Part shown: positions 532-15,255 of the stretch, piece by piece | How the letters are laid out: the number at the start of each line of letters is the position of its first letter | How positions within the stretch are numbered: position 1 is the stretch's first letter | Origin: a virus | IMG/VR virus record: IMGVR_UViG_3300045971_000427 | Coordinates: 1-21,541 of that record | DNA length: 21,541 nucleotides | Strand: one strand, 5' to 3' | Notes under the pieces: model-generated | What the model was told of the DNA's origin: nothing | The model's database searches: none | The model's input: only the letters and a program-made list of their open reading frames with translations | Position numbers and translations under genes: made by a program

Positions 532-891
532 TTATTTTTTCTTTGAATCGACTATCGACATTTTTATCCGTTCAACCGTTTCATCCGTCAAGCTAACGGG
601 TTCTGACTTGTCTTCCTTCCAGCGCATCTGTGTTTTAGACCACCAAATCAACGCCGAGGTATCTCCCTCCATACACCGTTGAAAGAGCTTTTTACCCACT
701 TGTGAATTAGTCTTGGACTTGCCCTGTGCCAGTTCTTTCTTGAAGTATTTGTTTAGTGTGTCCTCATCGATTCCGTCATCTGTCACCAGAGCGGCAATGT
801 TAGCAAATGGCACACCGAAGCCACTCATTTTCTCAACGAGTTTCCTTTGTGTTTCTGTGAATATCATGGGTTTTGGGCCTGATTTAGCCAT
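532..891 (-). CDS. Terminase small subunit-like DNA-packaging protein
   Basis: This 119-residue protein is probably the small terminase subunit, which recognises phage DNA and loads the large subunit. It starts MAKSGPKPMIFTE. Residues 12-50 look like a helix-turn-helix that picks targets (VEKMSGFGVPFANIAALV, then DEDTLNKYF). The following segment, with KLFQRCMEGDTSALIWWSK and MRWKED, is typical of small terminase and packaging proteins of many proteobacterial phages. The C-terminus is Lys-rich (SIVDSKKK). It sits directly upstream of the large-subunit gene with a 4-bp gap, which strongly supports the call. Primary sequence of small terminases is poorly conserved, so the role rests on motif pattern plus position. 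Confidence 0.75.
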   Translation of the reverse strand: MAKSGPKPMIFTETQRKLVEKMSGFGVPFANIAALVTDDGIDEDTLNKYFKKELAQGKSKTNSQVGKKLFQRCMEGDTSALIWWSKTQMRWKEDKSEPVSLTDETVERIKMSIVDSKKK

Positions 892-926
892 AAAAGCCTT
901 TTATAGTTCCGAAAATCATAATAAAT

Positions 927-2120
927 TTAGCCACTCAAAGCCTCCTTGACCTCGTTGAATGTTTGTCCGGTTGCTTCAAGTGTAGCCTGATGACCGGTGA
1001 AATTCTGCCATCTATTCACGATAACATCGACGTAATTGGGTGATAACTCTAATCCGTAACAAATGCGGTTGGTTTTTTCGGCGGCGATTATGGTTGTTCC
1101 TGAGCCTAGAAAGGGGTCAAATATTAAATCGTTTTTGTTTATGCTACAACGTTCTATAAACCACTCCCAAACGCCAACGGGTTTAGAACATGGGTGGCCT
1201 AAAGAATTATCACTTGATTCAGTTTTACATAAGGCATCGGGACGACTTCCTAAACCATTAGCTAGATAAATATCTTTCCCATAGCACAAAATAGGCTGCC
1301 AACATGAGAATCCCCAAGCATTCATTCCTGTACCAGCAGGAACGAACCATGCCATTGTCCATGTTGGAGTTGGATAGATATATTGATTTTTATTGCCAGG
1401 CGTTAAAACAACAATATTTGCTACTGATTGTGCAATAGGTAAAAAATCAGCAATCAACTTTTTTAAATTCTCAAGTGAATCGTCATAAACATCATAATTA
1501 TTTTTATCGCTTTTAGTATCGCCAATCCCATATGGTGGGTCTGTTAAGCATAAGTCCGCCTTTTTCCCATCCATCAGCTTCTCAACATCGGTAATGCTGG
1601 TCGAATCACCACACATAACCCGATGCTTTCCCAATAACCAAACATCGCCCAACTTGCTAACAGGTTCTTCCGGTACTTCTGGAACCTCATCAGCATCGGT
1701 TAAGCCCTCGGTTTCCCCTGCATCAAAATCAAACGCCTCGATCTCATCCAGACTAAAGCCCGTTAGCTCAAGATCGAAGTCCATGTCCTCCAGATCCTTA
1801 AACTCAAGCGAGAGCAGTTCATCGTCCCACTCAGCAGCAAGAGCCATCTTGTTGTCTGCAATGATATAAGCCTTTTTTTGTGCCGGTGACAAGTGGCTTA
1901 ATTCAACCGTAGGGACACTCTCCATTCCCATCTTTCGAGCCGCCATGAGCCTTCCATGCCCGGCAATAATGCCATTATCGCCATCCGTCAGAATAGGGTT
2001 AGTGAATTGAAACTCCTTCATGCTGGAAACAATCTGATTTACTTGCGCCTCGCTGTGTACCCTCGCATTGTTCACGTAAGGGATAAGGTCAGTTACTTTT
2101 TTGTAAACTATTTCAAGCAT
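927..2120 (-). CDS. ParB-like domain fused to a DNA methyltransferase
   Basis: This is a 397-residue two-domain protein. Residues 1-90 form a ParB/Srx-type domain with the box GIIAGHGRLMAA (about 50-61). After an acidic linker (about 100-155) comes a methyltransferase domain with DPPYG at about 194-198 and an S-adenosylmethionine-binding DPFLGSGTT at about 335-343. The order (DPPY before FxGxG) is that of beta-class enzymes, and DPPY fits N6-adenine more than N4-cytosine methylation. Phages carry such fusions as orphan modification enzymes, often to evade host restriction; no cognate nuclease is visible. I prefer ATG at 2120 because it overlaps the upstream stop (TGATG); an in-frame GTG lies one codon earlier, at 2123. 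The target sequence cannot be inferred. Confidence 0.88.
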   Translation of the reverse strand: MLEIVYKKVTDLIPYVNNARVHSEAQVNQIVSSMKEFQFTNPILTDGDNGIIAGHGRLMAARKMGMESVPTVELSHLSPAQKKAYIIADNKMALAAEWDDELLSLEFKDLEDMDFDLELTGFSLDEIEAFDFDAGETEGLTDADEVPEVPEEPVSKLGDVWLLGKHRVMCGDSTSITDVEKLMDGKKADLCLTDPPYGIGDTKSDKNNYDVYDDSLENLKKLIADFLPIAQSVANIVVLTPGNKNQYIYPTPTWTMAWFVPAGTGMNAWGFSCWQPILCYGKDIYLANGLGSRPDALCKTESSDNSLGHPCSKPVGVWEWFIERCSINKNDLIFDPFLGSGTTIIAAEKTNRICYGLELSPNYVDVIVNRWQNFTGHQATLEATGQTFNEVKEALSG

Positions 2121-2245
2121 CACCCTAACACCGTGCTCAATTCAAACATGCCAAATATGGTCATCACAAACAACACGAACACCAAAACGATGACCAATGT
2201 TGCAAAAACCTTGTTGAAGTTTCTCAGGATCATATTGATGCTCAT
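2120..2245 (-). CDS. Small single-pass membrane protein (41 aa)
   Basis: This short gene reads MSINMILRNFNK, then a strongly hydrophobic stretch from about residue 13 to 33 (VFATLVIVLVFVLFVMTIFG), then a short tail ending STVLG. It is almost certainly membrane-inserted with one helix. Its start overlaps the upstream stop by 4 bp (ATGA) and its stop overlaps the methyltransferase start (TGATG), which indicates translational coupling in the operon. I do not recognise a family. A holin-like or membrane-anchoring role is possible, but nothing in the sequence shows it. Confidence 0.6.
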   Translation of the reverse strand: MSINMILRNFNKVFATLVIVLVFVLFVMTIFGMFELSTVLG

Positions 2246-2478
2246 AAATTCACCAGATCATCATCGCCGTTGATCCCAAGACCGCTTATTTCCCAATAGT
2301 GGTGCTCTATTTTCAGTTGTGAAATTTTTTTGAACGGGGGCTTATTGACCGTTAAATCGCCAATCAACACAGCACGACCGTCTAACGTCGCCTCTTTCAA
2401 CCTGACTACCAGCCTTCCGTCCCGTGTCTTGGCTTGTCCGGTATCTAAACTAAGTTTTCTATCCCAGTTCAAATCCAT
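2242..2478 (-). CDS. Hypothetical phage protein (78 aa)
   Basis: Not recognised. The 78 residues begin MDLNWDRKLSLDTGQAK and alternate charged and hydrophobic segments that suggest a small beta-rich fold (RLVVRLKEATLDGRAVLIGDL), ending GLGINGDDDLVNL. There is no signal peptide or membrane helix. The start overlaps the end of the preceding gene by 10 bp and the stop overlaps the next start by 4 bp, so it is a genuine member of the leftward operon. Function unknown. Confidence 0.6.
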   Translation of the reverse strand: MDLNWDRKLSLDTGQAKTRDGRLVVRLKEATLDGRAVLIGDLTVNKPPFKKISQLKIEHHYWEISGLGINGDDDLVNL

Positions 2479-2696
2479 TTCCGTTTCAGTTCCGCGCTTT
2501 CTATGTCATCGACAATACTTTTAAAAATGTTTCCAGAAATAAATTTAAAAACACTTTGGTTTTTCGACAGGTGCAATAAATGCACGTCGACAATCTTGAT
2601 GTGATCGTCTGCTGCTGTTTTCCAGTCTGCGACAATATCAATATTGTACAGCGTCATTCGGTGCTGGTGTATGGTGTCAGTCGTCCCAGTATTCAT
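2469..2696 (-). CDS. Hypothetical phage protein (75 aa)
   Basis: Not recognised. The protein starts MNTGTTDTIHQHRMTLYN and contains two possible strands (IDIVADWKTAADD, IKIVDVHLLHL), followed by SKNQSVFKFISGNIFKSIV and a charged C-terminal helix ending ELKRKWI. It has no Cys and no membrane segment. Its start overlaps the upstream small membrane-protein gene by about 20 bp and its end overlaps the next gene by 10 bp. The overlaps on both sides make it a likely real gene; its role is unknown. Confidence 0.55.
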   Translation of the reverse strand: MNTGTTDTIHQHRMTLYNIDIVADWKTAADDHIKIVDVHLLHLSKNQSVFKFISGNIFKSIVDDIESAELKRKWI

Positions 2697-2850
2697 AGTT
2701 GATTTGCGTGTCGCGTTGTTTGCTGCGCTTGTCTTGCTCTTTCAGTATTCCGCCTGCTTTGTGCAGAAGATAGGCGATAAAGATACAGGCTGTGGCTGTG
2801 ACTAAAGCGGTGATTACCCACATTTCATTACTCGTTATTTCTGCTATCAT
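2677..2850 (-). CDS. Small membrane protein with charged tail (57 aa)
   Basis: The sequence starts MIAEITSNEMW, followed by one transmembrane helix at about residues 11-30 (WVITALVTATACIFIAYLLH) and a cytoplasm-like, highly charged tail (KEQDKRSKQRDTQ) ending NYEYWDD. The ATG overlaps the stop of the preceding 39-residue membrane-protein gene (ATGA), so the two are likely coupled. A pair of tiny adjacent membrane proteins could be lysis-related (holin or pinholin-like) or accessory; no family match is recognised. Confidence 0.6.
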   Translation of the reverse strand: MIAEITSNEMWVITALVTATACIFIAYLLHKAGGILKEQDKRSKQRDTQINYEYWDD

Positions 2851-2966
2851 TTTTTGAGTTCCTTAAAAAACATCCAAAACAAGCTTCCGGTTGCCAAGGC
2901 AAGAATGATAATAGCCGCCAGCAAGATCGCTTCGCAGGTGAAAATGTCGTTATGTATTTTATCCAC
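2847..2966 (-). CDS. Small membrane protein, GTG start (39 aa)
   Basis: This reading frame starts at GTG (2966) and encodes VDKIHNDIFTCEA followed by a hydrophobic helix at about residues 14-34 (ILLAAIIILALATGSLFWMF) and FKELKK. No ATG is available in frame upstream. The stop overlaps the next start as ATGA, which supports real translation of this very short gene. It forms a doublet with the 57-residue membrane protein just downstream. The function cannot be assigned. Confidence 0.5.
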   Translation of the reverse strand: MDKIHNDIFTCEAILLAAIIILALATGSLFWMFFKELKK

Positions 2967-3002
2967 AAAAGCTGTGCATAAGTAGGGGTTAAAAGCGGGT
3001 TT

Positions 3003-3329
3003 TTAGTCTGTATTCAATTGAGAATAATACTCTTTTTTTAATTTGTCTAATCTTTGTACTATTTCCCGTGGTTTGCCCCATTTAACATTGAGTTTCATAA
3101 GTTTAACCGTGGACGCTTTTTTGGCTTCCCCGTTCCATTCTTTTATCCATTCCAAGGCTTTTTCTTTGTCATAGACAAAGGCACTGGAACTGCCATTCAC
3201 TCGCTCTGGAATAAGTTGCGTATAGTGATGATTCAATAGCCTACCACTGAGCGTATTCAGGGTAATACCTAGCAATTCGCACAACTCGAGGCGAGTGATG
3301 GTATTTTTATTTTTTGAAGTTTGTCTCAT
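3003..3329 (-). CDS. Small putative helix-turn-helix protein (108 aa)
   Basis: The N-terminus MRQTSKNKNTITRLELCELLGITLNTLSGRL fits a MerR/excisionase-type winged helix-turn-helix (helix 1 LELCELLG, turn ITL, recognition helix NTLSGRLLNHHY). A middle segment follows (VYDKEKALEWIKEW), and a basic C-terminal helix pair ends KLKKEYYSQLNTD. It overlaps the end of the upstream 49-residue gene by 23 bp. It could be a small DNA-binding regulator or a nucleoid-acting early protein. This is inferred from secondary-structure pattern only. Confidence 0.55.
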   Translation of the reverse strand: MRQTSKNKNTITRLELCELLGITLNTLSGRLLNHHYTQLIPERVNGSSSAFVYDKEKALEWIKEWNGEAKKASTVKLMKLNVKWGKPREIVQRLDKLKKEYYSQLNTD

Positions 3330-3456
3330 ACTTCCATCCCCTATAAAGTAATTTCTGCTGACAGAATATAATCACGTTTCTCGCATGACCGCTATAGACA
3401 AAATTCCCTTTGGGCTTCCTGACGTTCCACAAGTCGCCCTTTGCAATTTTAGCCAT
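3307..3456 (-). CDS. Small basic hypothetical protein (49 aa)
   Basis: I choose ATG at 3456 (MAKIAKGDLWNVRKPKGNF) because it follows the stop of the PP-loop gene at 3458 almost directly; a longer in-frame start at 3519 would sit wholly inside that gene. The product is very basic (many Lys/Arg), with one Cys (VIIFCQQ) and the C-terminus YETNFKK. It overlaps the next gene by 23 bp. Possibly nucleic-acid binding; no family recognised. Confidence 0.45.
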   Translation of the reverse strand: MAKIAKGDLWNVRKPKGNFVYSGHARNVIIFCQQKLLYRGWKYETNFKK

Positions 3457-3457
3457 T

Positions 3458-4234
3458 TTAGTTCCCACAAAACCCAGTACATTCATTACCAAACATATCA
3501 ACCGTGTACTCATCACCAATATTCGCTACGGATAATGGCGTTAAACTTCGGTGCATATATTCTGCATTTTTCATATACCCACGTAAGCCTTTGCTTCTCA
3601 GACTTGAATCCACAAAACAGGCATCTTCCCACGCCTTTTCATCGTTCGCCTTCATGTCCCGCCAATGGGCATTGCTGTGATACGGGCAACCGATACAGCT
3701 CGATTTTGGTGGCTTCGGATAGCCGTTTTTTTGCATCCAAATAAGGCAATCGGTTCGAGTCATACCGGCATCAATCAACGGCCATTGGTTTTCAATCCAT
3801 ACGTCCCTGCTGGGCTTCATGCGTTGGGCTTCATCGCGGCTAATGCCTATCATCATTTTGACGCTGCCCTTGGGTATGCGTTGGCCTTTGTTGTAACCCA
3901 GTAATTCACGGATTTTTATGCGGATCGGAGCGATTTTATATTCACTGGTACATTGCCTGCGGCCAATTCCGCCATCCACAAAAAACGGGATTGATTCAAA
4001 GCGTTTAGACGAATCAATATTTTCAAGCAGGTCATCCCGTATATTGCCCTTGCTGACTCTTAACACGGGGTAACTGAGCTGTTTTTCCAGCCAATCAAGC
4101 CACTCATAGCAATGCTGCGGTTCCCATCCCGTATCTGCAAAAATGGCATAGTCCGGCTTCTCAATTTCGCCATGTTCGGCCATGAGTGCCAATGTTGAAG
4201 ATTGAACGCCTGCACCCAGACTAAGTATTTTCAT
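3458..4234 (-). CDS. PP-loop ATPase, PAPS reductase-like (adenine nucleotide alpha-hydrolase fold)
   Basis: This 258-residue protein has an N-type ATP pyrophosphatase fingerprint: the PP-loop SLGAGVQSS (about 5-13), a second-strand motif FADTGWEP (32-39), and the conserved RRQCTSEYKIAP around 92-103. C-terminal Cys pairs follow (CIGC at 180-183; C252 and C256). These are typical of the broad PAPS reductase/DndC/thiouridylase superfamily, which adenylates a substrate and often transfers sulfur. This phage subfamily has no established substrate that I know of. It overlaps the previous small gene by 4 bp. With the ParB-methyltransferase and the TGT-like gene in the same operon, a role in nucleic-acid modification is a reasonable inference. 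It could instead make a small thio-compound. Confidence 0.8.
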   Translation of the reverse strand: MKILSLGAGVQSSTLALMAEHGEIEKPDYAIFADTGWEPQHCYEWLDWLEKQLSYPVLRVSKGNIRDDLLENIDSSKRFESIPFFVDGGIGRRQCTSEYKIAPIRIKIRELLGYNKGQRIPKGSVKMMIGISRDEAQRMKPSRDVWIENQWPLIDAGMTRTDCLIWMQKNGYPKPPKSSCIGCPYHSNAHWRDMKANDEKAWEDACFVDSSLRSKGLRGYMKNAEYMHRSLTPLSVANIGDEYTVDMFGNECTGFCGN

Positions 4235-4371
4235 TCTTGCCGCCTCTGACTGCCTACTGGGTACGATAAATTTTCGGCCATGCCTTGGCGCTTAAGCCAG
4301 GGTTCATTTCCTGTCTTTGTGCCAAATCCATGCCGCCAGCAAAACACTATCTGCAAAATTAGTCTAATCAC
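4231..4371 (-). CDS. Tiny basic protein, GTG start (46 aa)
   Basis: A GTG at 4371 overlaps the rusA stop (GTGA), and the frame's TGA overlaps the start of the PP-loop gene (ATGA). The gene exactly fills the gap between them with 4-bp overlaps at both ends. The product starts VIRLILQIVFCWRHG, is rich in Arg and Gln, and ends GSQRRQE. Coupled overlaps on both sides are the main evidence that it is translated. No family recognised. Confidence 0.5.
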   Translation of the reverse strand: MIRLILQIVFCWRHGFGTKTGNEPWLKRQGMAENLSYPVGSQRRQE

Positions 4372-4787
4372 GTTAGCGCCTTTTCGCTGCTGTTGTCTAC
4401 GTGTTCGCTGATTTTAACGACATTTGAAAAATTCGGATCGGGGATAATTTCGACCACGACTTTGCCCTTAAAATCTGGGTTAAATTCGTGATAAACCCAG
4501 TGATAAATAAAATTCTTGTCATTGACGTGCAGGTATTCGGCCAGACTATCATTTGCAAATTTCATCATGGCGATAACATTATCCTGATCGAAAGCATGAC
4601 GGCTAGGTGGATAGAAATTGACGCTTAGATGCACCTTCTCGTCGCCAGAATAGGTTAATCCTGCCTCTTTACACAAATAATAAACCGTGCGCTTGTAGTC
4701 CTTGCCGGTCTTTGCTTTAACGCGCCAGTGGCATCGGCTGTTTGGCGAAAGCTCTTTGGGTGGAAACGGAAGCTCTACGGTGTACAT
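4368..4787 (-). CDS. rusA: RusA-family Holliday junction resolvase
   Basis: RusA-like enzymes cut four-way DNA junctions and resolve recombination intermediates before packaging. The 139-residue product has the family layout: an N-terminal strand VELPFPPKELSPNSR, then the acidic metal-binding block HAFDQDNVIAMMKFANDSL (about 64-82) with the D-x-D-N signature, followed by LHVNDKNF, a conserved second acidic site. The C-terminal strand VVVEIIP completes the fold. Family length is about 120-140, so it looks complete. Its start lies inside the end of the upstream gene (13-bp overlap). It probably works with the exonuclease/annealase pair encoded on the other strand at 11120-12954. Confidence 0.85.
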   Translation of the reverse strand: MYTVELPFPPKELSPNSRCHWRVKAKTGKDYKRTVYYLCKEAGLTYSGDEKVHLSVNFYPPSRHAFDQDNVIAMMKFANDSLAEYLHVNDKNFIYHWVYHEFNPDFKGKVVVEIIPDPNFSNVVKISEHVDNSSEKALT

Positions 4788-5062
4788 AAATTTAAATCCT
4801 CTAATGGCACAACAATGGCATCGCCCAGCACAGCATGGAAGCTATTGTTAAACCCTTTCCTGTAAATGTCAGTCGCTTTTGTGTTGATCTTCAAATCTTT
4901 AGTTTTCGCATGTTTATCGACCAGCATCACATGAATCCCGTCCACCAGGTATTCAAGATCAATGTCGTCGGTGTCGAGCATTTCGGCCAGTTCGCAAATT
5001 GAGTGCATGGACATAATCCTGATTTCTTCGCCGTTTGCCCGGTAGAGTTTTCTAATCAACAT
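4775..5062 (-). CDS. Hypothetical phage protein (95 aa), possibly DUF3846-like
   Basis: The protein starts MLIRKLYRANGEEIRIM. A central helix (ICELAEMLDTDD), a strand GIHVMLVDK and a late GDAIVVPLEDL motif give an alternating alpha/beta layout that loosely resembles phage DUF3846 proteins, but I cannot confirm this. There is no Cys cluster or membrane segment. The gene overlaps both neighbours slightly, so it belongs to the leftward operon. Function unknown. Confidence 0.5.
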   Translation of the reverse strand: MLIRKLYRANGEEIRIMSMHSICELAEMLDTDDIDLEYLVDGIHVMLVDKHAKTKDLKINTKATDIYRKGFNNSFHAVLGDAIVVPLEDLNLCTP

Positions 5063-5802
5063 GAGAACTCAAACAAATCGTGGTTTTCAACCGCTTTATA
5101 AGCCGGTGCGCTGTTATGTGATTCGATTCTATCGGCTATGACTGCTGCCCGTTGCGAAGATGTTGCAGGAATATACATGCCAAACCGTGACACTGAACCG
5201 CTATTAACTCCTGCATTGGTTGAATCTGCTGAAGATAACGGAAGTCTTTCAAATATCTTGGGGTCTAACATTCTCAATCCGTGTAACTTGCAGCGAGGCG
5301 TACCGTCACTAAAACAAATAACCGCCATAGATTCCGTAATTCTTTTCCACCATTTGTCATTCCCAGGTGTTGAGTAATCGCCAGAACTTCCCAGAGCCAC
5401 TATTTCAAAACTATCAACCAGCCATTCCAGATATTCTAAACTTTCGTGCAAATGCCAAACGGGAACGCCTTTTGTCCGTGTTCCTGATCTAACCCATTTT
5501 AAGACCCAATCCACGTTATCCTGTTCTGTTCCGTCGATAATGTCCGGTATCAAAGCCCAGTCGAAAGACGGGTGTTTTCGTAGCGATTGCGCCCAAATCA
5601 GGTAAGCATCAAAATCTATGCGTCCAGCTCCACGCCGCCAGTGTGAAAAAGCAGAGTTATCCAGACAAAATGACTGGCAAAATTCCAATACCGGGCCTAA
5701 ATCGTCTTGCCTGCCAAATGGTATTAACGCATGTCTACCAACCAAAAAACGGGCTGTATCTTGTCTGCTTCCCCCGATTGGAGTGCCGTGATAGTGGATC
5801 AT
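5056..5802 (-). CDS. Phage TIM-barrel protein, candidate TGT/DpdA-like base-exchange enzyme
   Basis: The 248 residues look like a phage protein related to tRNA-guanine transglycosylase/DpdA barrels. Candidate active-site blocks are LDNSAFSHW (47-55, Asp 48), PDIIDG (86-91, Asp 87), VWHLHE (115-120), ALGSSGDYSTPG (136-147), KLHGLRML (172-179) and SADST (191-195). In this superfamily, Asp residues and glycine-rich loops bind the base, and enzymes insert 7-deazaguanines into tRNA or, for DpdA, into DNA. I do not see the classical TGT zinc site, so assignment is by motif resemblance and remains tentative. It overlaps the next gene by 7 bp. No queuosine or preQ0 biosynthesis gene is visible in the window, so a precursor would have to come from the host. 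Confidence 0.5.
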   Translation of the reverse strand: MIHYHGTPIGGSRQDTARFLVGRHALIPFGRQDDLGPVLEFCQSFCLDNSAFSHWRRGAGRIDFDAYLIWAQSLRKHPSFDWALIPDIIDGTEQDNVDWVLKWVRSGTRTKGVPVWHLHESLEYLEWLVDSFEIVALGSSGDYSTPGNDKWWKRITESMAVICFSDGTPRCKLHGLRMLDPKIFERLPLSSADSTNAGVNSGSVSRFGMYIPATSSQRAAVIADRIESHNSAPAYKAVENHDLFEFSC

Positions 5803-5805
5803 CGC

Positions 5806-5997
5806 TTAATCTTCATCGGTGTAATAATCCTCGCGCCGGTCGTTGTGCCGCCTTGTAAACACCTGGCTTTTAACCCAGTCTTTTGTTCTTTCTTCCTCGC
5901 AAATTGTGCAGATATAGTCGCCTTGTCTTGCCGTATGAATCTTAAATTCCATACCAATCATGTGTTTCCCATATCTACAATAAAATTCTTTAGCCAT
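5806..5997 (-). CDS. Small CxxC protein (63 aa)
   Basis: The protein starts MAKEFYCRYGKHMIGM and has a CTIC pair (residues 30-33), with one more Cys at residue 7. The C-terminus is highly charged (RRHNDRREDYYTDED). It resembles half of a zinc ribbon and may bind zinc, alone or as a dimer. The start follows the stop of the next upstream gene by one base. It is one of three tiny Cys-pair proteins in this part of the operon. Function unknown. Confidence 0.55.
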   Translation of the reverse strand: MAKEFYCRYGKHMIGMEFKIHTARQGDYICTICEEERTKDWVKSQVFTRRHNDRREDYYTDED

Positions 5998-5998
5998 C

Positions 5999-6175
5999 TC
6001 AACCCTCCGTAAAAATCAGATTAACCAACAGCTCCCTGATGGTTTTACCTGAACAGTGTCCGTCGCCATCGGGGTTAAACAGCCACCAGGTATCTGCTTG
6101 CTTTTTGATGTAGAAGCCCTGTGATAGCCGAGTTTCCAGTAATTCAAAGATGGGGTAAAGCAGATCAGTGGTCAT
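5999..6175 (-). CDS. Hypothetical phage protein (58 aa)
   Basis: I take ATG at 6175 (MTTDLLYPIFELLETRL), which slightly overlaps the end of the preceding zinc-ribbon gene; an upstream in-frame start at 6256 would lie deep inside that gene. The product reads like a compact alpha/beta domain: helix FELLETRL, strand FYIKKQADTWWLF, turn NPDGDGHC, then helix TIRELLVNLIF. No catalytic motif is recognised. Confidence 0.5.
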   Translation of the reverse strand: MTTDLLYPIFELLETRLSQGFYIKKQADTWWLFNPDGDGHCSGKTIRELLVNLIFTEG

Positions 6176-6365
6176 GCTGGTGCCACCTATGGATTTTGCT
6201 GTTTTTCCGGTCAATGGGCATCCTTGGCATACAGCGTTTATCGTCGCACTCGGCACAGATGTAGTGATCCATGTACTTTGAGGGCAGTCGGAATATCTCG
6301 GTTTTCCATTCTCGACAGTGGCAACAGTAAAACTGGGGTTCTGGTTGTATTTCGGGTGTGTTCAT
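6165..6365 (-). CDS. Small zinc-ribbon protein (66 aa)
   Basis: Two Cys pairs, CCHC (residues 14-17) and CAEC (37-40), are spaced as in a zinc ribbon: FYCCHCREW, then YICAECDDKR. The C-terminus is His- and Lys-rich (RKNSKIHRWHQHDH). It probably binds zinc and perhaps nucleic acid or a partner protein. The gene overlaps both neighbours (4 bp upstream, 11 bp downstream), which indicates a real operon member. Confidence 0.6.
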   Translation of the reverse strand: MNTPEIQPEPQFYCCHCREWKTEIFRLPSKYMDHYICAECDDKRCMPRMPIDRKNSKIHRWHQHDH

Positions 6366-6676
6366 GGACTTGTATAGCTCCCATAGCCTTGTTGTTCTTT
6401 GAGCACATCGCGGAAAGCCTCGTCGATTAGCACGTTCTTTGGGATTGTTTTGTTACCTTCCAGATGGCGCTCGATAAAGTAATCCGGTTCCAGTCCGCAG
6501 CGGCGACACGCTTCCAGTCCATTGGCTACCCATATTCGATCCCGTTGGTATTTTGCGGCCAAGCTATCGGCCTTTACCCAGCCGAATTTTATGTTTACTT
6601 CTTCATCCGTCAAAATCTTGATGGAATCGGCATCGTAAACGGCCATTTTTTCGCTTTCTTCGGTTTCAATCTGCAT
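6362..6676 (-). CDS. Hypothetical phage protein (104 aa)
   Basis: The start ATG at 6676 is preceded by a good ribosome-binding site (AAAGGTGA); an in-frame GTG lies two codons upstream. The protein begins MQIETEESEKMAVYDADSIKIL and contains a helix-rich middle with EACRRCGLEPDYFIERHL, a single CxxC. It ends EQQGYGSYTSP. It is followed by overlapping small Cys-pair genes. Because a roughly 170-bp gap with an inverted repeat precedes it, this may be the first gene of a sub-operon. Family not recognised. Confidence 0.55.
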   Translation of the reverse strand: MQIETEESEKMAVYDADSIKILTDEEVNIKFGWVKADSLAAKYQRDRIWVANGLEACRRCGLEPDYFIERHLEGNKTIPKNVLIDEAFRDVLKEQQGYGSYTSP

Positions 6677-6752
6677 ATTCACCTTTCAAACCTCTTTTTT
6701 TTGTAGTTTCCAGCTAACTGGGGTGGTTGCCACGGCTTTTAAACACATTAAT

Positions 6753-6785
6753 CACGATAAGTATTCATCTCATAAAATTATCGTG
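6753..6785. promoter_or_regulatory. Inverted repeat in the 6677-6848 gap
   Basis: An 8-bp perfect inverted repeat, CACGATAA at 6753-6760 and TTATCGTG at 6778-6785, is separated by 17 bp. It lies in the only sizeable gap of the leftward operon, upstream of the gene starting at 6676. No T-tract follows on either strand, so it looks more like an operator or structured leader than a terminator. A similar short motif, GCCACGGCTTTTAAAC, lies at 6729. I see no convincing promoter in the gap. Confidence 0.35.
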
Positions 6786-6848
6786 GCTTAAAACGCAAAT
6801 TTGGGGCCTTCCTGAAAACATCGCCTTAAACCGCGTTTTTTTACGATC

Positions 6849-7049
6849 TCAGAACACCGCTTTGTGACTATCTTCCTCAAGATGCTTCAGCTTCACCAAT
6901 TCCCGGTTCGCATCGTCCAGGGTTTTCAGAAACCTGCGGTACTCGCGCTCGTCTGATCCCCCAAGGTTGCAGTTACGGAAATACTCAACGTGGAAAACAT
7001 TGAGGAAATCGATCATGTCTCTCATAATTTTTATTGTTTGGGTGTGCAT
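6849..7049 (-). CDS. Hypothetical helical protein (66 aa)
   Basis: I choose ATG at 7049 (MHTQTIKIMRDMIDFL), just after the stop of the P-like gene; a longer frame from 7136 would lie inside that gene. The product is almost entirely helical and charged (REYRRFLKTLDDANRELVK, HLEEDSHKAVF) and could form a coiled coil. It follows directly on the helicase loader-like gene and may assist replication, but no family is recognised. Confidence 0.45.
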   Translation of the reverse strand: MHTQTIKIMRDMIDFLNVFHVEYFRNCNLGGSDEREYRRFLKTLDDANRELVKLKHLEEDSHKAVF

Positions 7050-7051
7050 GG

Positions 7052-7687
7052 TTAGCCATTCCTCGTGAAATGTTCTTTGCAATAATAATTTCCAGCTCCT
7101 CCTGTGCCATGGCTCATCGTGCCAGGATTTCCACAAAATGAGGATGAGCAGGTGTGCCCTGCTGCGTTTAGTTTCTTCTTTGCATCAAATTCCGCTATCA
7201 GTTTTTCGTGGTCTTTAAGGCGATTCATGTGCGCCTCGTGTTTTTGTTCTTTGGTAAATCCATGCTCATCTAGCGCCACTTGCGCTATTGCTGCCCTGAG
7301 CATCGCTATCGGGTTGACCGTTCGCGTAATGTTCAACGGGGGCGCTAAGGCTATGCGTTCGGCTTCCTTGCGGTTCTTTTCAACCACTTTCGCCTGTTTT
7401 CTGGCCTCATGAATACACACAACCAGTTCGTTGGTATTCGGGCAATACTTAACGTGTTCGGCTAATGCCAGCTTATAGCCAGGGTAGATATGCTCAGGGG
7501 TTGTTTTAAATCCATCCTCTGACAACCTGACGTACAAGTTACGCCTAAAATCCTTTAATGCTGACTCATTGGGTATCTGACTGGTAAATATGCGGCCATA
7601 ATCAAGCTTCATGGCGTCCGTCATTTGAGCAATAGCCAATGCTAACGGATCTTTCTTTATCCTATCGGTAATGTCTGTTATATTCAT
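7052..7687 (-). CDS. Lambda P-like replication protein (candidate helicase loader)
   Basis: The 211 residues resemble lambda P in the central part: YGRIFTSQIPNESALKDFRR, an enhanced-turn segment YVRLSEDGFKTT, and YKLALAEHVKYCP, with the same pattern as the P region that ends near its WCREE segment. P-like proteins bring the host DnaB helicase to the phage origin. A charged helical linker (95-175) is followed by a C-terminal zinc-finger-like motif with C180, C185, C203 and H206, common in related phage replication proteins. It lies just downstream of the O-like gene. The resemblance is moderate, but position and order support the call. Confidence 0.65.
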   Translation of the reverse strand: MNITDITDRIKKDPLALAIAQMTDAMKLDYGRIFTSQIPNESALKDFRRNLYVRLSEDGFKTTPEHIYPGYKLALAEHVKYCPNTNELVVCIHEARKQAKVVEKNRKEAERIALAPPLNITRTVNPIAMLRAAIAQVALDEHGFTKEQKHEAHMNRLKDHEKLIAEFDAKKKLNAAGHTCSSSFCGNPGTMSHGTGGAGNYYCKEHFTRNG

Positions 7688-7754
7688 TGTCGTGATTTCC
7701 GTGTTAGGGGTTGCGCTTTTAGCGGAGTCATTTCGTCGGTGGCTTCGCTAATTT

Positions 7755-8789
7755 TTAATGGCCTGGGCCTATCTGGTAGTTTTCCAAGCCTTCGTACCAA
7801 GATGTATCTTTCCAATCAATCTCTTCTTTCTGTTTGCCTCCGTTGTTGTGCTTATTATTGTTAAGATCGCCTTTCCAGTTCCACGTTGAATCAAAACCTG
7901 CCCAGTTTTTTTCTATGGAAATCCTGATAGCATCAATTATCGAAATTCCCGCTTTGTCCGCTTCACGCTGAAACCCAGTTAATGCAGTCTCTGTTATTGG
8001 CGCTCTTTTGCTTTTACGGTGCATGATAAAGTCGTTAGCCAGTTTTCCTTCTATCCCAAACGCAAGTAACAAGACTTGGCTTTCAGTTAATCGTGGAGTT
8101 GGTTTTTTCACACGCGCGTGCTTTTGCTTTTCATCACAAGAAGTAATCTCTGAAGTACTCTCTGTTATAGTTCCGTTAATTTCAACTGACGTATCGTTGT
8201 TTTCAACCGACGAGTGGTTGTTTTCAACTTCTCGATTCGTTATTTTTACCGATTCGGTATTTACTGATTCGTTATTTTTAACGATTCTTATATTTAGCGG
8301 CCTAGAGGCGTATTCGTTACTTTTAACGGGTAGGTAATTATTTTTTACCTGTACCGATTCGTTGTTTTTAACGATTCGGTGATTTAGCCACTTGGAGTAG
8401 GTTTCAGGGTGAAAAAGATAATAAATGGTATGGTCAAAACCGTATCTTCCACTGGGATTTTTATGCTCTGAAATGATTTTCTTTTCAACCAGTAGCTTTC
8501 TGGCTGCTTTAATCGACGATATTCCGTATAAACCAATGATTCCATCGCTTAATTCATTCATATTATGGAACTGATAAAGGCTTGTATCATGGCATCTTGC
8601 CTCACCATGCTCTTGCGCTATGTCATTCAAAAAGGCGTTTTTTGGAACCATCTCAAGTTTTATGTTATGCCAATATTCAAAAAACGACATTAAAGCCGCC
8701 GCACAAGCGTTACCATCACAAAACTCAACTTGAGCTTTTCTTATAATTATTAAGGGTTCATGCGGGTGTGAAATACAGCTAGTTTTCAT
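7755..8789 (-). CDS. O-like replication initiator with embedded repeats
   Basis: The 344-residue protein has an N-terminal domain with a winged-helix pattern at about residues 75-130 (MNELSDGIIGLYGISSIKAARKL, then a wing YGFDHTIYYLF). Residues 137-208 form a repetitive stretch in which heptads of the type VKNNESV and VENNDTSV recur; their DNA holds the iteron-like repeats described separately. A charged C-terminal domain follows, with TESQVLLLAFGIEGKLANDF and a Trp-rich end, WKDTSWYEGLENYQIG. In lambda the initiator O likewise carries the origin iterons inside its own gene and is followed by P, as here. ATG at 8789 has a good ribosome-binding site (AAAGGA). The gene likely starts phage replication. 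Confidence 0.7.
   Translation of the reverse strand: MKTSCISHPHEPLIIIRKAQVEFCDGNACAAALMSFFEYWHNIKLEMVPKNAFLNDIAQEHGEARCHDTSLYQFHNMNELSDGIIGLYGISSIKAARKLLVEKKIISEHKNPSGRYGFDHTIYYLFHPETYSKWLNHRIVKNNESVQVKNNYLPVKSNEYASRPLNIRIVKNNESVNTESVKITNREVENNHSSVENNDTSVEINGTITESTSEITSCDEKQKHARVKKPTPRLTESQVLLLAFGIEGKLANDFIMHRKSKRAPITETALTGFQREADKAGISIIDAIRISIEKNWAGFDSTWNWKGDLNNNKHNNGGKQKEEIDWKDTSWYEGLENYQIGPGH
8171..8390. repeat. Iteron-like repeats, candidate replication origin
   Basis: Within the O-like gene I see a family of repeats with consensus GATTCGTTATTTTTAACG. Clear cores (GTTRTTTTYAAC type) begin near 8175, 8196, 8217, 8239, 8271, 8316, 8338 and 8361, with weaker copies between. The main spacing of 21-23 bp is about two helical turns. 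The best copies have inner dyad symmetry (CGTTA-TTTT-TAACG), as lambda iterons also do. The repeats translate into heptads of the initiator, so some conservation could be protein-driven. Confidence 0.6.
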
Positions 8790-8791
8790 GA

Positions 8792-9007
8792 TTATTCCTT
8801 TGTCGTATGCCTACTGCATACCCTGTCAGCATTAGGCCAAAACAACTGATTGCCTAGCGCCCTGAAATTGGTTTCATAAGCCTTGGGGTCGGCTCGTCTT
8901 TTCGGGAATGAATTTAGCCAATGTTCAAGCACGGAACACTGACCCAAGCTATTGCGCTCATACTTGGGGTCTGGTGGCATGAAGTTTTGGCAGTTAGAGC
9001 AGATCAT
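8792..9007 (-). CDS. Small Cys-containing protein, first gene of leftward operon (71 aa)
   Basis: I prefer ATG at 9007 (MICSNCQNFMPPDP), which has an AGGT site upstream; another in-frame ATG lies at 9025. The N-terminal CSNC pair and two later Cys (QCSVLEHW, VCSRH) could bind one zinc ion. The rest is basic and aromatic (RRADPKAYETNF, FWPNADRVC). The gene is the promoter-proximal member of the leftward operon, directly before the replication initiator. Such small Cys proteins are frequent next to phage replication genes. Function unknown. Confidence 0.6.
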   Translation of the reverse strand: MICSNCQNFMPPDPKYERNSLGQCSVLEHWLNSFPKRRADPKAYETNFRALGNQLFWPNADRVCSRHTTKE

Positions 9008-9047
9008 AAGTAAACCTGTATACATTCCGTTTAAATAACTGTAAAAT

Positions 9048-13237: not shown

Positions 13238-13786
13238 ATGCTGGTTGATGCCTGCACAAAAACTGATATTGAAATGGTGCATAGCCTGTTAAGGCGAAAG
13301 TACCTGCCTATCTATGCTGATATATGGAAAATTGGTGTCAACTCATCTTTGCGTATTGGTGACCTTTTGTCGATCAAGCATAAGGATTTAAATCTTTCCA
13401 GGCGATCATTGAAACTGATTGACCAAAAAACCAAAAAACCGAATGAAATAAGATTAAACGCGCCTGCGCTTGAAATTATCCATAAACGATGGTTGGAGCA
13501 ACCGGATGATGTTTGGCTGTTTCAGGTACACAGTAACCGTGCAGCCAATAAGCCGATAAGCAGACAAGCGGTTTCAAAAGTATTTAGGGAAGTCGGTGAA
13601 CAACTGGGCTTAACGATAAATACCCACTCCATGCGTAAATCCAGAGGGAAAGCCATGTATGACGCTGGAATACCAATACAGACCATATCTAAGGTTCTTA
13701 ATCACTCTAATCCTATGAACACCATGGCGTACCTTGGTATTACCAGAGAAAGTGTCCTAAAAACCTATGACGACTTCGAGCTATGA
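13238..13786 (+). CDS. Tyrosine recombinase (integrase), catalytic domain only
   Basis: The 182-residue protein carries the full tyrosine-recombinase active site: R39 (SLRIGDLL), a basic beta-hairpin with K64-K67, H130 and R133 (THSMRKS), H156 (LNHSN) and the nucleophile Y165 (MAYLG). It lacks the N-terminal arm- and core-binding domains of lambda-type integrases (about 350 residues), so it is a minimal integrase or a remnant. ATG 13238 has an AGGAT site seven bases upstream. A short overlapping 13-codon frame begins at ATG 13208. The gene is convergent with the TnpB element across a repeat-rich gap. It probably integrates the phage, but the missing domain leaves doubt. Confidence 0.8.
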   Translation: MLVDACTKTDIEMVHSLLRRKYLPIYADIWKIGVNSSLRIGDLLSIKHKDLNLSRRSLKLIDQKTKKPNEIRLNAPALEIIHKRWLEQPDDVWLFQVHSNRAANKPISRQAVSKVFREVGEQLGLTINTHSMRKSRGKAMYDAGIPIQTISKVLNHSNPMNTMAYLGITRESVLKTYDDFEL

Positions 13787-14046: not shown

Positions 14047-15255
14047 CTAACTCGCCGTAGAATTCATCCCAATTTGCAAGATGTTTTTAGATGCATTCAA
14101 ATCTGCATGATCCACATGCCCACAATGAACGCATTTAAAAACCGCCTGGGATTGCCGGTTTTCTTTATCGACTGCTCCACACATAAAACAGGTTTGTGAG
14201 GTGAATCGCGGGTTAACCGGAATCAATACGCCGCCATGCCGCGCGGTTTTATAGTCCAGTTGCCGCCTGAACTCAAACAACCCCTGATTCAATAACGAAC
14301 GGTTTAAACCGGATTTTTGTTTCACCATTTTACCAGGTTCCTCAACCGTCCCCTTGGATGATTTTGTCATGTTTTTTAATTTCAAATCTTCGATAACAAT
14401 CACATCATGTTTTTGGGTAATTTCAGCTGTTACCTGATGGGCATGGTTAACCCTGATGTCAGATATTTTTTTATGATGTTTGGAAATCTTCTCTTTTTGA
14501 AATGCGTGACGCGCGGATCCTTTAGTCATTTTTGCCAGTTTACGCTGCAATTTAACCAGTTTTTTGGTGTTGCTTTCCAGCGCACGTGCAGACGGATAAA
14601 CCGTGCCATCCGATAATGTGGCATATTGGGCTATCCCCATATCAATACCAATAGGCGTATTGCTTGGCGATTGTTCCCACACCTCGTCATGTTCCAGGAG
14701 TAATGACACCCACCATTTTCCGCCACGATAACTAAACGTGGTGTTTTTGATAATACCGTCATGCGGTTTTTGGCCTAATCTAACCGAGCCGTAGTCCTTG
14801 GGTAATAACAGTTTATTGCCTATTAAATGCTGGTTTTTAATCACTGACGTGGTGAATTTAAACGAGTCATTCATCCCGCGTTTTTTAAACTTTGGATAAC
14901 CCGGAACACCGCCCTTTTTAACCCGTTCAAAAAAGTTTTTAAAGGCCAGTTTCAAGTCGTTAACTATCCCTTGCTGCGCCACACATGACGGCACAATTAA
15001 TTTATTGTCATCACCATAGAGCCAAGGATATTTTTGTTTCTTAACCGCATTAAAAACCTTGTCGATATCGAACGCAGACGGTTTTGGTTTGGTTTCATCC
15101 AGTTTATGCGCGTCATACATGGCAATCCATGTACCCAATGCAAAATTAAACGCAACCCGACGCGCATTAACGCATTGCATGAAAAAATCATGCTGTTTGT
15201 TGTTAACGTGTACACGTGTTTTGAATGCGCTTAAAGTCATGATATACTTTAACAT
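14047..15255 (-). CDS. tnpB: TnpB RNA-guided endonuclease (IS605 OrfB)
   Basis: The 402-residue product is a full-length TnpB, an RNA-guided nuclease ancestral to Cas12. The RuvC acids are present: D205 (IGIDMG), E289 (VIVIEDL) and D385 (HADLNASKN). A zinc finger is intact with CFMC (356-359) and CVHC (375-378). The N-terminal wedge/REC part includes FKTRVHVNNKQHDFF and RRVAFNFALGTWIAMY. Because all catalytic residues are present it should be active, unlike domesticated TldR derivatives. Start ATG 15255, or ATG 15240 (MTLSAFKTR), which matches many family members better. The gene is divergent from the RHH gene at 15284 with only 28 bp between. Confidence 0.92.
   Translation of the reverse strand: MLKYIMTLSAFKTRVHVNNKQHDFFMQCVNARRVAFNFALGTWIAMYDAHKLDETKPKPSAFDIDKVFNAVKKQKYPWLYGDDNKLIVPSCVAQQGIVNDLKLAFKNFFERVKKGGVPGYPKFKKRGMNDSFKFTTSVIKNQHLIGNKLLLPKDYGSVRLGQKPHDGIIKNTTFSYRGGKWWVSLLLEHDEVWEQSPSNTPIGIDMGIAQYATLSDGTVYPSARALESNTKKLVKLQRKLAKMTKGSARHAFQKEKISKHHKKISDIRVNHAHQVTAEITQKHDVIVIEDLKLKNMTKSSKGTVEEPGKMVKQKSGLNRSLLNQGLFEFRRQLDYKTARHGGVLIPVNPRFTSQTCFMCGAVDKENRQSQAVFKCVHCGHVDHADLNASKNILQIGMNSTAS

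Follow-up and report, generated by a model that had tools for sequence, protein, structure and literature searches.

The gene at 5056..5802 (minus strand) of the DNA analysed here encodes a 248-residue guanine transglycosylase-like barrel of the TGT/DpdA type that belongs to the 'singleton DpdA' group, and is a newly found member of a group already described. The window is the entire virus contig of 21,541 bases, which is possibly a fragment. With modest confidence, we favour the reading that this enzyme uses a 7-deazaguanine made by the host or imported from outside, probably on phage DNA, and that the PP-loop protein and the ParB-methyltransferase encoded nearby act separately. The preliminary description of this DNA had grouped the three genes as one candidate modification set; joint function of the PP-loop and DpdA-like enzymes is not supported by the neighbourhood survey reported below, and the PP-loop enzyme and the ParB-methyltransferase are probably two further, independent enzymes.

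The family assignment draws on both sequence and predicted structure. In a family-model search the protein matched phrog_887, 'queuine tRNA-ribosyltransferase', at E 1.2e-58; like the matches of the other two proteins to phrog_424 and phrog_498, this is well beyond chance. Searches against the sequences of solved structures, profile search included, returned no match. The AlphaFold model is confident (pLDDT 86.8). Foldseek placed generic TIM barrels on top, with the first TGT row at rank 32, and alone did not pick out TGT. A second structural alignment did, as TGT or DpdA accounted for 50 of the 50 matches listed, among them 1j2b (Z 15.2, 4.7 Å over 229 residues), Zymomonas mobilis TGT (Z ~14.8, 2.9 Å over 215) and 7ui4, the solved DNA preQ0 insertase DpdA (Z 14.6, 4.1 Å over 220). 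The predicted structure is thus the TGT-type barrel that the preliminary description had suspected from motifs, and a non-TGT fold was not found. The predicted catalytic residues D48, D193 and H174 align with D72, D215 and H196 of phage 9g DpdA and are invariant across 57 relatives, in which mean column identity is 67%. The 9g histidine is the DpdA-marker that separates DpdA from DpdA2 (PMC6884629). Both the DpdA-like and the PP-loop reading frames were found on the minus strand as first described, with all the quoted motifs present (SADST, KLHGLRML and ALGSSG; SLGAGVQSS and CIGC), and these are among the most conserved columns in the relatives (57 DpdA-like and 34 PP-loop proteins).

Singleton DpdA proteins form group 3 of Hutinet et al. 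2019 (PMC6884629), who counted 76 phages with DpdA but without pathway genes, noted a gammaproteobacterial singleton cluster whose status they called hard to predict, and suggested host preQ0 or uptake as the source of the base. The DNA of one such phage, Salmonella phage 7-11, contained dADG at 50 per 10^6 nucleotides by LC-MS, corresponding to a modification level of only ~0.02% of G, while no modification was seen in the DNA of Orion, a singleton-DpdA phage of a host without the pathway (PMC6884629). The window protein shares with 7-11 gp32 the TGT-type barrel and the conserved Asp/Asp/His, at 30% identity (E 3e-28 pairwise, 3e-20 in the collection search). Against 9g DpdA the identity is 27% over 118 residues (E 7e-10 pairwise, 4e-3 by tblastn). 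Both are only distant relatives, which counts against the favoured reading. Phages 9g and CAjan encode the preQ0 or G+ pathway, whereas the window protein is shorter than their DpdA and has no adjoining folE, queD, queE or queC. Among the window proteins scanned there was likewise no match to QueC, QueD, QueE or QueF, which bears out the earlier remark that no queuosine pathway gene is visible. The lack of preQ0 biosynthesis genes in the record, which may be a fragment, is a likeness to other singletons, as such genes are not required in group 3. The window gene differs from described singletons in lying in a temperate, nin-like region, and from its own branch relatives, which often abut a VUT transporter gene or a gene for a protein of ~80 residues.

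These two linked genes emerged from an unbiased neighbour survey of DpdA-like loci. Genes for VUT_1 (PF02592) membrane proteins, the family to which the preQ0 transporter YhhQ belongs, occurred in 34/212 DpdA-like loci and in 0/267 control loci (Fisher 1.9e-13); every one of the 34 carries a DpdA-like gene, with the VUT gene on the same strand, on either side and within 390 bp. Examples are L497:4935-5468 in phage Pam5 and L063:2787-3257. YhhQ homologues had been noted in some phages before, uncorrelated with any DpdA group (PMC6884629). The gene for the ~80-residue protein was found in 87 loci, each of which also has a DpdA-like gene, and in none of the 267 controls. It directly adjoins the DpdA-like gene, upstream or downstream (L287:6931-7215, L042:7756-8001 and, by position, L139:9756-10001), and its product, which has no Pfam match, may be an accessory protein of DpdA. 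Some of the loci behind the two counts are close relatives of one another; clustered at 80% identity, they come down to 14 and 13 of 58 DpdA clusters, respectively. In the window contig, profile searches found neither the VUT gene nor the ~80-residue partner.

The source of the base can be approached through the genomes in which relatives of the gene reside. QueC exceeded the cut-off in 28 of 31 such genomes and Tgt was present in all 31. Flanks were readable in two of the QueC-negative genomes, one from a Rhizobium isolate and the other a Devosia metagenome-assembled genome, and both have the VUT gene beside DpdA, against 1/28 of the others (p 0.007, with small numbers and one of the two being metagenome-assembled). 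A search for further alphaproteobacterial hosts returned only the genome already known. The presence of QueC and Tgt, together with VUT in the QueC-negative genomes, favours a 7-deazaguanine that is either host-made or imported, and the host precursor put forward in the preliminary description is plausible on the strength of these relatives and the VUT linkage. As the contig contains neither VUT nor the small partner, this phage more likely obtains the base through the host pathway.

Two other accounts of the DpdA-like gene have to be weighed against the favoured one. The protein could act on tRNA, for example by altering host Q-tRNA during infection, rather than modify DNA. The model resembles tRNA TGT and DpdA with equal Z-scores, and the database name of its family is that of a tRNA enzyme. 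However, identity to Tgt is only ~9% over the aligned residues, the protein is ~120 residues shorter than tRNA TGT, and the zinc motif of the latter (CxCxxC...H) was not found in its sequence, whose only cysteines are C42, C46, C163, C171 and C248. Further, the DpdA-marker histidine is kept, and a Tgt is already present in every genome with a relative, so that a tRNA substrate appears rather unlikely. Alternatively, what this phage carries could be a relic, degenerate or of low activity, that makes no useful modification. The unmodified DNA of Orion and the trace level in 7-11 would fit such a state, as would a window without transporter gene or small partner, but the reading frame is full-length, the catalytic residues are retained and the 57 relatives are well conserved, all of which makes decay distinctly unlikely.

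The genomic setting bears on the other half of the favoured reading, the separateness of the neighbouring enzymes. All genes from ~532 to 9025 point leftward, so that the single leftward operon proposed earlier is reasonable as a predicted operon. The nin-like region starts at an O-like replication initiation protein (7755..8789, minus; phrog_678, E 2e-23), which is followed by small genes and the DpdA-like gene. The 3' end of the latter overlaps by 7 nucleotides a 95-residue ORF (4775..5062, minus) whose family matches are all at E 0.08 or weaker, and which does not match the profile of the ~80-residue partner from other loci. A RusA-like Holliday junction resolvase (4368..4787, minus; phrog_34, E 1.2e-19), a typical nin-region gene, lies between the DpdA-like gene and that of the 258-residue PP-loop protein (3458..4234, minus), an N-type ATP pyrophosphatase of the phrog_424/SspD/lambda NinC superfamily. 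After more small genes, one with a weak HTH match, comes a ParB-N domain fused to an N6/N4 DNA methyltransferase (927..2123, minus, with an ATG start at 2120; phrog_498, E 1.4e-116), and directly downstream of it in leftward order the terminase small subunit (532..891, minus; phrog_309, E 5e-10), where the early, nin-like region ends. On the opposite strand are a fragmentary integrase and genes resembling RecE and RecT. This layout, with a lambda nin-like accessory region separating replication genes from packaging genes, is that of a temperate phage. The tyrosine recombinase ORF (13238-13786, plus, 182 residues) aligns for the most part with the C-terminal portion of XerC/D-type profiles and is probably a truncated integrase.

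The PP-loop protein is a PP-loop enzyme with conserved cysteines, as the preliminary description had stated, and both conservation and predicted structure uphold this. It matches phrog_424, 'PAPS reductase', at E 9e-45 and is nearest to this family, SspD, lambda NinC and PAPS reductases. Its model (pLDDT 87) aligns with the PAPS reductase 7rge (Z 12.5, 3.6 Å over 158 residues) and the [4Fe-4S] protein LarE (Z 12.0). The 34 relatives all retain six cysteines (C95, C163, C180, C183, C252 and C256), a pattern that suggests an Fe-S cluster or a sulfur relay. In a defence-library search covering three window proteins, the PP-loop protein matched SspD alone (E 4.8e-14, residues 2-239, nearly the full length), and no other match of Ssp type was obtained. 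In a known DNA phosphorothioation system, SspD is the PP-loop enzyme. Lambda NinC matches the same SspD model at E 1.9e-14, and several phage relatives of the superfamily are annotated NinC; hhalign aligned the window protein with the NinC family at a probability of 96.6 over 189 columns, and identity to NinC itself is 25% over 157 residues. Unlike SspD and NinC, however, the window protein belongs to a distinct subfamily with LGAGVQSS instead of SGGxxS. Three other identities were considered and rejected. While the fold is shared with CysH/PAPS reductase, the score against Pfam PF01507 is 18.1 bits, under the 22.5 cut-off; for QueC, the NCBIfam matches at E up to 1 did not include TIGR00364; and for DndC, the defence library gave no match at E up to 1. 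Among the related proteins, the NinC-type protein of phage lambda imm21 (L495:2971-3861) is itself PAPS-reductase/SspD-like (PF01507, E 7.5e-9). A sister subfamily at L258:1513-2274 matches the solved 'PptA' (21fy_C) at E 6e-73; a literature search returned no paper pairing PptA (21fy) with phosphorothioation or giving its role.

Whether these enzymes belong together was addressed by counting neighbours in relatives, with domain-based PP-loop counts that near DpdA take any PP-loop subfamily. NinB loci served as the control for the nin region, RusA and the O-like gene having too few relatives for this. A DpdA-like gene accompanies orthologues of the window's own PP-loop gene in only 2/47 records, and profile searches found it in 0/80 ParB-methyltransferase loci. 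A PP-loop gene lies within 3 kb in 9/49 DpdA clusters (four clusters brought in by the PP-loop query being left out), compared with 3/48 ParB-methyltransferase clusters and 11/80 NinB loci (p 0.62 for the latter comparison). Conversely, the DpdA-like gene occurs in 10/80 NinC-type PP-loop loci and in 8/80 NinB loci (p 0.80). Co-occurrence is thus much the same as the nin-region background, and a shared nin-like location, as in locus L287 with the order NinC-NinB-DpdA, explains the proximity; these counts lend no support to the idea of one modification set. Set beside the PP-loop figures, the VUT and ~80-residue counts show what a linked gene looks like.

The possibility that the PP-loop and DpdA-like enzymes form one pathway nevertheless deserves consideration. 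A 7-deazaguanine could be inserted and then activated or thiolated, or its precursor could be prepared in a QueC-like manner, and the PP-loop fold does include nitrile synthetases as well as sulfur transferases. Within 3 kb of DpdA-like genes there are PP-loop genes from several subfamilies, in nearly every case on the same strand, and the two abut directly in several unrelated phages: with a 4-bp overlap in Mae-JY30, and also in the acidobacterial prophages L164/L165 and the Rhizobium prophage L171. Within NinB loci, joint presence exceeded expectation (5/11 against 3/69, p 0.0009), but 74/80 of these loci form one similarity cluster, and the p-value is unreliable because the loci are closely related. 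Background-level rates, the 2/47 pairing of the window's orthologue, the varying subfamily of the partner and the missing TIGR00364 match all point the other way, and a common pathway is unlikely. A bolder version, in which an SspD/NinC-type enzyme and a singleton DpdA, drawing on a host or imported precursor, together yield a sulfur-bearing or otherwise derivatised 7-deazaguanine, or DNA that is altered at a base and also phosphorothioated in its backbone, is highly improbable.

Under the favoured reading of a singleton DpdA supplied from outside, the barrel would cleave guanine at its glycosidic bond, with phage DNA as the probable substrate, pass through a covalent intermediate at Asp193, and re-form the bond with a 7-deazaguanine (preQ0, preQ1 or a derivative). 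The base would not be phage-made but supplied by the host queuosine pathway or a transporter. The predicted outcome is a low or partial content of 7-deazaguanine in phage DNA, which may hinder host restriction enzymes. The PP-loop protein would be an accessory enzyme of NinC/SspD type acting on its own, using ATP for substrate activation and probably an Fe-S or cysteine site for sulfur handling; it would share with the DpdA-like gene a nin-like region rather than a pathway. The ParB-methyltransferase would be a third, independent DNA-modification gene.

The role of singleton DpdA in phages unable to make preQ0 was left open in 2019. The neighbourhood survey offers a testable answer: genes for a precursor transporter and for a small protein are linked to the DpdA-like gene in part of the branch studied here, and this linkage suggests that the base is salvaged or made by the host. 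The survey also cautions against two readings of a phrog_424 'PAPS reductase' gene found in a nin-like region, one as a component of a base-modification set and the other as sulfur metabolism and nothing more.

Two minor observations may be added. The window contains an intact-looking TnpB RNA-guided nuclease (14047-15255, minus; NF040570, E 6.8e-77), for which no TnpA partner is apparent in the ORF list. Among the database relatives of the DpdA-like protein, a 1.7-kb record labelled 'Staphylococcus phage SA 1298 Kay' (OR850331.1) gives a 41.4% match, the same as the Salmonella phage SPN3UB group, and its label may be wrong.
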